Shown one piece after another: positions 61,693 through 62,181 of a stretch of DNA of 64,000 nt. A program made the translations under genes and the position numbers. The number at the start of each line of letters is the position of its first letter. Positions within the stretch are counted from its first letter, which is position 1. The stretch is from Cyclobacterium marinum DSM 745. Lineage in GTDB: Bacteria; Bacteroidota; Bacteroidia; Cytophagales; Cyclobacteriaceae. The DNA lies in NCBI RefSeq assembly GCF_000222485.1, contig NC_015914.1, forward strand, positions 5,996,001 through 6,060,000. The letters run 5' to 3'. The notes under the pieces are model-generated. The model saw only the letters and a list, made by a program, of their open reading frames with translations, made no database searches and was not told the DNA's origin.

Positions 61693-61878
61693 GACAATCG
61701 GTATGTTAAACCTCTAAGGTAATCAAAAATATAAAATGTATTTTTCAAAAATCGTTAATAACATAGCTTAAAACAATACAATTTTTATCAAAAAATCACA
61801 TAGCCAATACTATTTTTAATTATAATGTATTTTTTTAGTATTTTCATTGTCATATTTTTAATTTCAATAGGTTTGTTT

Positions 61879-61886
61879 TACCTTTG
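61879..61886 (+). promoter_or_regulatory. promoter -7 box for tRNA-like gene
   Basis: TACCTTTG is an exact TAnnTTTG match ending 34 bases before the mature 5' end of the tRNA-like gene. A good TTTG at the ideal -33 distance is not evident. Confidence 0.5.
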
Positions 61887-61919
61887 AAACATCAAACAGA
61901 GTCAAATGGTCTCTTATAC

Positions 61920-62043
61920 TGTAGGATGATGAAACTGGCAGACATGCCCTCCTGTCTCGAGGGTGGAGATCTCAGGATAAAGAAAATAGCGAGCTCGTAT
62001 TTTTCCTAACTGCTCCGTGGAGGTTCGACTCCTTCTCCTACAG
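61920..62043 (+). tRNA. unusual class II tRNA-like gene, anticodon GUC, giant variable arm
   Basis: A full cloverleaf can be drawn. The acceptor is TGTAGGA with TCCTACA (7 bp). The D-stem is ATG with CAT, around a Leu-type AAACTGGCAGA loop. The anticodon stem is CCCTC with GAGGG, around loop CTGTCTC (anticodon GTC, 61954-61956). The T-stem is GGAGG with CCTTC around TTCGACT. Base 73 is G, and the next bases GCA-type do not encode CCA. The variable region is 55 nt (61964-62018) instead of 4-24. It folds as GGAG/CTCC, AGGA/TCCT and AAAATA/TATTTT stems capped by CGAGCTCG. The body looks like tRNA-Leu, but GUC, G73 and C38 are aspartate identity bases. A promoter-like box and a terminator flank it. 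Charging and function are unknown. Confidence 0.75.
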
Positions 62044-62074
62044 CAGGTTATTTTGGGTTTATTGTTAATTGACT

Positions 62075-62103
62075 AAAGCTATGAGACATTGTTTCATAGC
62101 TTT
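62075..62103 (+). terminator. terminator of tRNA-like gene
   Basis: Perfect 10-bp arms AAAGCTATGA (62075-62084) and TCATAGCTTT (62094-62103), with a T run after them, 32 bases downstream of the tRNA-like 3' end. Confidence 0.9.
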
Positions 62104-62181
62104 TTTGTTTTCCCCCTGGCTTAAATCCTTTCAATGAGTGTTATTAAAAATAATAGAAAAAATAAAATAGGCATAAAATAA

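Follow-up and report, generated by a model that had tools for sequence, protein, structure and literature searches.

What does a bacterium do with an RNA that has the body of a tRNA-Leu and the anticodon of a tRNA-Asp, when two ordinary genes for tRNA-Asp(GTC) and four for tRNA-Leu are also present in its genome? The question is raised by a locus close to the end of the window, as we call the whole 64,000-nucleotide stretch of Cyclobacterium marinum DSM 745 DNA analyzed here (contig NC_015914.1, positions 5,996,001 to 6,060,000). A preliminary description of this DNA had reported a complete cloverleaf with a 55-nt variable arm, and a leucine-type body carrying the aspartate identity features G73, GUC, and C38; on both points the sequence reads as described. 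The independent transcription unit that it proposed is apparent too, with a TAnnTTTG box and a terminator both present (Table 1). The host tmRNA and ordinary tRNA-Asn are encoded by genes separate from the tRNA-like RNA.

Table 1. Coordinates of the tRNA-like RNA gene, its parts, and its flanks in the window.
Feature	Position	Strand	Remark or basis
tRNA-like RNA gene, positions 1 to C74	61920..62044	+	class II, G73, 55-nt variable region
Acceptor stem, 5' strand, TGTAGGA (pairs with TCCTACA, 7 bp)	61920..61926	+	comparison of copies
Acceptor stem, 3' strand	62036..62042	+	covariation
Class II D-arm with a 3-bp stem; GG followed by C-A at 20-20a; U20a absent	61929..61945	+	
Anticodon arm, stem CCCTC/GAGGG (5 bp)	61947..61963	+	comparison of copies
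Anticodon loop CUGUCUC: anticodon GUC, base 37 = U, base 38 = C	61952..61958	+	
Variable region, 55 nt	61964..62018	+	basal stem GGAG/CTCC covarying
T-arm, canonical UUCGACU loop	62019..62035	+	sequence and covariation
G73 and encoded C74	62043..62044	+	both in 162/162 copies
TACCTTTG, Bacteroidota-type -7 box (TAnnTTTG)	61879..61886	+	sequence
3' trailer (common to the same-genus copies compared) and intrinsic terminator	62045..62106	+	
Terminator hairpin, then T run	hairpin about 62075-62100; whole about 62075-62106	+	sequence
Upstream region common to 4/7 other canonical copies of the genome	61816..61919	+	DNA comparison

The RNA gene, its structure, and its spread

The end of the gene is better set at 62044, because C74 is encoded, as it is directly after N73 in the 36 host tRNA genes above the Rfam cut-off. 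The upstream box was labeled by what we take to be the -7 consensus of Bacteroidota; boxes of the TAnnTTTG type precede 95 of 172 copies by no more than 150 nt and with scattered spacing, in a count made without a chance control. Upstream matches start at 61816-61847 in the four genomic copies that share this region, and at 61915 in the other three of the seven.

DNA searches revealed nine copies at separate places in the C. marinum genome, and matches in 45 of 59 genomes, this genome and relatives taken together. The covariance model R1, whose alignment includes the window copy, scores that copy at 146.9 bits. When 395 Bacteroidota genomes were searched with a covariance model, under stricter filters by which weak matches may be lost, 40 gave a match scoring 70 bits or more; matches of at most 66 bits, mostly about 85 nt long, were taken as ordinary tRNA-Leu. 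Among the matches listed are Cyclobacterium, Algoriphagus, Belliella, Echinicola, Chitinophaga, Pedobacter, Hymenobacter, Pontibacter, Neolewinella, Fulvivirga, and one Ignavibacteriales MAG, and there are at least 80 RNA loci in named records. For comparison we used 162 distinct copies from relatives, having excluded four rows: an 87-nt ordinary tRNA of Cohnella (L199) and three that were short or cut (L198, L167, and L193:345).

ARAGORN did not report the RNA at 61920-62044, Rfam 15 offered nothing credible for it at the gathering score or at E up to 10, and the list from an RF00005 search of the C. marinum genome at E up to 10 did not include the tRNA-like loci. No such RNA is described in the literature searched, a scope that most subscription papers fall outside, and Bacteroidetes are not mentioned in PMC7609411 and PMC9897764 under the terms looked up. 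The claim that the combination is undescribed thus held within these libraries and this literature.

The structure is established by comparison between copies and not by the folding energy of a single sequence, which does not stand out (z = -1.27, with 24 of 200 shuffles folding equally well). An alignment of 30 copies has 97.1% of cells paired over 31 pairs, which cover the cloverleaf and the distal variable stem, and 13 of these pairs show changes on both sides; slid partners are paired in 50-63% of cells, a comparison in which the structure is favored, being derived from the same 30 sequences. In a shuffle test, four of five measures were reached by 0 of 500 shuffles, and the fifth by 12 of 500. 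Acceptor pairs 4-7 vary and covary, and the variable region of further copies has conserved GGAUAAA and CUAAC on either side of a covarying distal stem whose length differs greatly. The 162 copies range from 109 to 211 nt, and 45 of them carry the motif GG[ACU][UC]GACCAC in the variable arm. A lack of conserved stems in relatives had been named at the outset as grounds for rejecting the RNA; the stems proved both conserved and covarying.

Some copies (L031 5170-5338, L086, and L180) contain an inverted repeat, CCCGAT...ATCGGG, inserted in the D-loop or variable arm, and five (L093, L096, L169, L174, and L230, the last three from Hymenobacter) combine C34 with a tail of repeated CTGGGTGGG. Two 331-aa ORFs of identical translation, presumably transposases of the IS110 type, lie between the RNA copies of L022 (4894-5889 and 7031-8026); as partners of the RNA, such IS110-like genes were rejected, being absent from the recurrent neighbor clusters. 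A different tRNA-derived arrangement was seen at L071 2176-4500 (G000:C1:2862175-2864500), where two tRNA-Val(TAC) genes are followed by a tandem array with units of about 350 bp, each comprising a short ORF, a tRNA-Val 3' half, and a terminator; we take the ORF to resemble a GIY-YIG endonuclease.

The RNA is also found in predicted viral contigs, at no fewer than 95 loci and in at least 82 distinct forms, of which 80 are uncut, two rows cut at an end having been left out. These copies were identified by a pattern that excludes the acceptor stem. They display U1-A72 and G2-C71 in 78 of 80 each and G73 in all 80, and their pairs 4-7 take many forms. Named phages and plasmids gave no blastn match to the RNA.

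Identity positions and the anticodon loop

The part of PMC9976931 consulted gives G73, G34, U35, C36, and C38 as the bacterial aspartate identity set, to which a table adds G10. The same part has U1-A72 permitting amidation and G1-C72 and U20a preventing it, lists G73 as acting against LeuRS, and says that the G1-C72 pair of tRNA-Asp helps AspRS. Across our 162 copies, U35, C36, C38, A72, G73, C74, and G2-C71 are each invariant, U1-A72 is found in 161 and U3-A70 in 160, and A occupies position 20a in 161. Position 34 is G in 149 copies, C in seven, A in four, and T in two. At position 10, A, U, and G all occur, and U11-A24 is found in most copies. Judged by these positions, the RNA carries most of the AspRS identity set, with G34 as the one variable member of the five, together with the signature of a GatCAB substrate: U1-A72 is present, and G1-C72 and U20a are absent. 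Among the host genes compared, only tRNA-Asn and tRNA-Gln start with U1.

The remainder of the molecule resembles tRNA-Leu. Its class II body has a Leu-type base of the variable arm, and the D-arm, the 3-bp D-stem, U44, and the two unpaired bases after the variable stem also match host tRNA-Leu. In contrast to bacterial tRNA-Leu, the RNA has G73 in every copy where A73 would mark a leucine acceptor, and it differs further in U1-A72, in the anticodon loop, and in its length.

In a decoding tRNA-Asp, U33 and a purine at position 37 flank the GUC anticodon. Here position 37 is T in 155 copies and C in seven, never a purine, and position 33 is T in 128, G in 21, C in seven, and A in six. The RNA is probably non-decoding, because base 37 is never a purine and base 33 is often not U. 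The preliminary description had guessed at a regulatory mimic, a non-translating tRNA, or a rare decoding species; the second fits best, and the last is at odds with the composition of positions 33 and 37.

On the enzyme side, the AspRS anticodon domain reads SKN, NKN, or AKN at the stretch compared in 29 of 30 proteins (the exception being G330), and histidine was found in 0 of 30 at a putative marker site, which we assume to be a mark of non-discriminating enzymes. A literature search for these residues returned nothing, and the comparison is a weak guide to the type of AspRS.

Neighboring genes and co-occurring enzymes

Clustering of neighbors placed a gene of the Lrp/AsnC family near the RNA in 34 of 61 loci, some genomes contributing more than one locus, and in all 34 this gene lies upstream of the RNA and divergent from it. 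The next clusters, which look to us like suf operon genes and an acyl-CoA ligase, comprise at most 15 of the 61 loci each. Among the matches listed, an AsnC-like gene is divergent within 600 nt in 48 of 80 loci; it was not found in 23, one of them the Cohnella tRNA, and the other nine have short upstream DNA. The divergent gene encodes an HTH and an Lrp/AsnC ligand domain, and its closest solved relative is AsnC (2cg4, 3e-47, versus 5.5e-16 for Lrp, 2gqq), as expected of the AsnC subgroup. In many relatives the genes for the RNA and for this AsnC-type regulator are arranged head-to-head, as asnC faces asnA in E. coli across a 151-bp gap, and the regulator probably controls the RNA gene; the difference is that the RNA gene occupies the place of asnA. 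In C. marinum, the AsnC-like gene (C1:5731895) is far from the RNA copies.

Both the RNA (match of at least 70 bits) and an AsnC-like gene (at least 223 bits in these genomes) are present in 40 of the 395 genomes; none has the RNA alone, four have the AsnC-like gene alone, and 351 have neither. The four are G048, G060, G179, and G414. In G048, a 77-nt match of 65.9 bits (L287 3338-3414, - strand) has the loop CUAUCUC and G73 and no long variable arm, and the AsnC-like gene is elsewhere. In G060, G179, and G414, no RNA match was found near the AsnC-like gene; these genomes are without GatB and have a true AsnB. At three loci of genomes without GatB (L283, L284, and L285), a short segment divergent from the AsnC-like gene combines CCUC/UCUC, a TATAATTGGTTAG-like stretch, and a hairpin resembling a terminator, and is perhaps a reduced form of the RNA.

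A link to GatCAB was proposed from the identity positions before GatB was searched. GatB was then found in all 40 genomes with the RNA. Within the same class (98 genomes), it occurs in 37 of 37 genomes with the RNA versus 4 of 61 without it (G048, G099, G210, and G257), and of these four, G048 and G099 are missing GlnRS and G210 and G257 have it. When only class genomes with GlnRS are counted, the figures are 33 of 33 versus 2 of 59 (Fisher 6e-23, ancestry ignored). In this class GatB accompanies either the RNA or a lack of GlnRS, apart from G210 and G257; beyond the class, genomes often have GatB and no RNA. Seven genomes with the RNA, that of C. marinum included, are without a full GlnRS, and GatCAB has another job there for this reason. 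The association between the RNA and GatB is strong in number but may depend on ancestry. A gene tree of AspRS from 29 genomes contains three to four supported independent pairs, of which two to three follow the predicted direction and none opposes it, numbers at which a sign test cannot reach significance. G330 was dropped before the second AspRS tree. The AspRS of G060 groups with other families, so that the AspRS tree is not a species tree.

Enzymes of asparagine metabolism were compared in 80 chosen genomes, the 44 with an AsnC-like gene and 36 others. AsnRS is present in all 80, in 78 over the cut-off, and is uninformative. AsnA, found in 9 of 80 and in 4 of the 40 with the RNA, C. marinum among them, does not by itself separate the groups. 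E. coli-type AsnB, as judged by protein length and matched stretch, was found in 0 of 40 genomes with the RNA versus 14 of 20 tested genomes of the same class without it, and 16 of these 20 have AsnB or AsnA. An AsnB-like protein above the TIGR01536 cut-off occurs in 35 of the 40 (that of G133 has 571 aa), and such proteins might make asparagine. A check of 12 proteins, one per genome, against NF006949 was passed by all four from genomes without the RNA (>900 bits) and failed by all eight from genomes with it, although these eight, too, might make asparagine.

One viral contig carries the RNA, a GS-like gene, and a 275-aa core of a class II D/K/N synthetase in a run on one strand (L328 4945-9401, IMG/VR contig 3300020477_001475), which also includes a cytidylyltransferase-like gene and two Mom-family genes. 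The core is without an anticodon domain, and around 82 other viral copies no such core was found at distances up to 3.5 kb. Among the best 80 of 598 relatives of the core, ten are followed downstream by an RNA match on their own strand. As members of the tRNA-like family, nine of these matches were rejected on reading: only L484, on the same contig as L328, has GUC. Seven of the others are class II sisters with GUU and U37, and the remaining two are a 77-nt GUU RNA with G37 and an ordinary-looking tRNA-Asn. The sisters (L504, L506, L508, L510, L513, L516, and L498; 85-97 nt, loop CUGUUUA) share the Leu-type body, G73, and U37 with the tRNA-like RNA and differ from it in the GUU anticodon, in A1-U72 (six of seven), and in a short variable arm. 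By their sequences they are a second tRNA-like type on the Asp/Asn theme, located beside an AsnRS-type enzyme, and the core is a candidate for charging the adjoining GUU RNAs.

A proposed function and its alternatives

As far as PMC4206432 was consulted, it describes asparagine synthesis on tRNA-Asn and counts 18 genera, Bacteroidetes among them, that have AsnRS, GlnRS, and GatCAB and no asparagine synthetase, a gap that the tRNA-like RNA would fit. With the tRNA-Asn of that system the RNA shares U1-A72, G73, and the logic of AspRS and GatCAB, and in both cases AsnRS and often GlnRS are also present. It differs in its class II body and in an Asp-type loop with C36, C38, and a pyrimidine at 37, and it looks non-decoding.

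We consider the chance slightly better than even that the RNA is a non-decoding derivative of tRNA-Leu, dedicated to tRNA-dependent asparagine formation as its substrate. It would then work like tRNA-dependent transamidation. Presumably transcribed as a unit, with a promoter and a terminator of its own, and then processed in the manner of a tRNA, the RNA would be recognized by the host AspRS through G34, U35, C36, C38, and G73 and loaded with aspartate; from the published identity sets, G73 is expected to keep LeuRS off and C36 to keep AsnRS off. GatCAB, which U1-A72 and a position 20a without U would admit, would turn Asp-RNA into Asn-RNA, a step supported by the co-occurrence of GatB, and the pyrimidine at 37 and the free base at 33 would bar the product from inserting asparagine at aspartate codons. 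The asparagine may then be released or handed to a putative acceptor, and an AsnC-type regulator, putatively asparagine-binding, would control the RNA gene that it faces in many relatives. The proposal draws on the U1-A72 signature, on a multicopy family that spans Bacteroidota and also viral contigs, on the AsnC-like gene divergent from the RNA in relatives, and on the co-occurrence of GatCAB. The three genomes with an AsnC-like gene and a true AsnB that have neither the RNA nor GatB count in its favor, as do the viral GUU sisters beside an AsnRS-type core. Against it stand the 13 of 162 copies without G34, a strong aspartate determinant, together with the unconserved G10 and the missing G1-C72; two genomes, G210 and G257, that have GlnRS and GatB and no RNA; the frequent presence of GatB without the RNA in other classes; the seven genomes with the RNA and no full GlnRS; the small number of independent pairs on the AspRS tree; and the AsnA and AsnB-like proteins of 4 and 35 of the 40 genomes with the RNA.

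The same identity elements and the same co-occurrence with GatB would be seen if AspRS, GatCAB, or both bound the RNA, and perhaps charged it, for titration or sensing under AsnC and without supplying asparagine. Such a regulator or decoy, which we regard as unlikely, would also suit the many copies, the likely control by AsnC, and the four genomes that have both the RNA and AsnA. However, it is hard to see why a decoy should keep G73 and an encoded C74 in every copy, and regulation alone gives no reason for the absence of E. coli-type AsnB from all 40 genomes with the RNA.

More doubtful is a donor role, in which Asp-RNA or Asn-RNA would feed a transferase acting on envelope, peptide, or lipid or, in phages, on DNA modification. 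Non-decoding tRNAs are known as aminoacyl donors, as in the case of the staphylococcal tRNA-Gly; that tRNA-Gly and tmRNA are tRNA-shaped and used outside ordinary decoding, as we propose for the tRNA-like RNA, and we know of no sequence relation of either to it. The viral run with its synthetase core and two Mom-family genes points in the direction of a donor, but that run is a single case, 82 other viral copies showed no such core within 3.5 kb, and cellular copies have no recurrent transferase next to them, their most frequent neighbor being the AsnC-like gene.

Quite improbable, in our view, is a base-pairing small RNA that uses a tRNA chassis, with the C/U-rich loop NNGUCUC and its variable arm as the active parts. 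It would account for the invariance of U35, C36, and C38 and the pyrimidine at 37, whereas 33 varies, and is consistent with the CCUC or UCUC segments and terminator-like hairpins facing the AsnC-like gene in three genomes without the RNA; but it would leave unexplained why viral copies keep U1-A72, G2-C71, and G73 when their acceptor stem otherwise drifts, and why the RNA is linked to GatB.

We give very little credence to a SerRS substrate: G73, G2-C71, R4-Y69, and the large variable region, which are part of the bacterial serine set, are found in most copies, but C72 and C11-G24 of that set are not (A72 in all 162, and mostly U11-A24), SerRS recognition is independent of the anticodon, the invariant U35, C36, and C38 would be left unexplained, and there is no link to GatCAB. 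Hardly credible, too, is a tRNA that decodes aspartate codons (GAC/GAU), or a decayed tRNA gene: the GUC anticodon and complete cloverleaf would agree with either, but the pyrimidine 37 of all copies, the non-U33 of 34 and the replaced G34 of 13 among the 162, and the ordinary tRNA-Asp genes argue against decoding, and the covariation argues against decay.

Returning to the RNA as a substrate for asparagine formation, we extend this reading to the family tentatively and at somewhat less than an even chance: many Bacteroidota may make asparagine by way of AspRS and GatCAB on a decoding-barred RNA, and not by an asparagine synthetase, with an asparagine-sensing AsnC and with phages carrying copies. 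If true, this would explain why many Bacteroidota keep GatCAB despite having AsnRS and GlnRS, and it would make sense of the AsnC-like regulator that faces the RNA gene and of viral tRNA-like RNAs with Asp or Asn anticodons. A widespread family that ARAGORN and Rfam do not report would then represent a tRNA-like RNA that is retained for carrying a metabolite and not for decoding.
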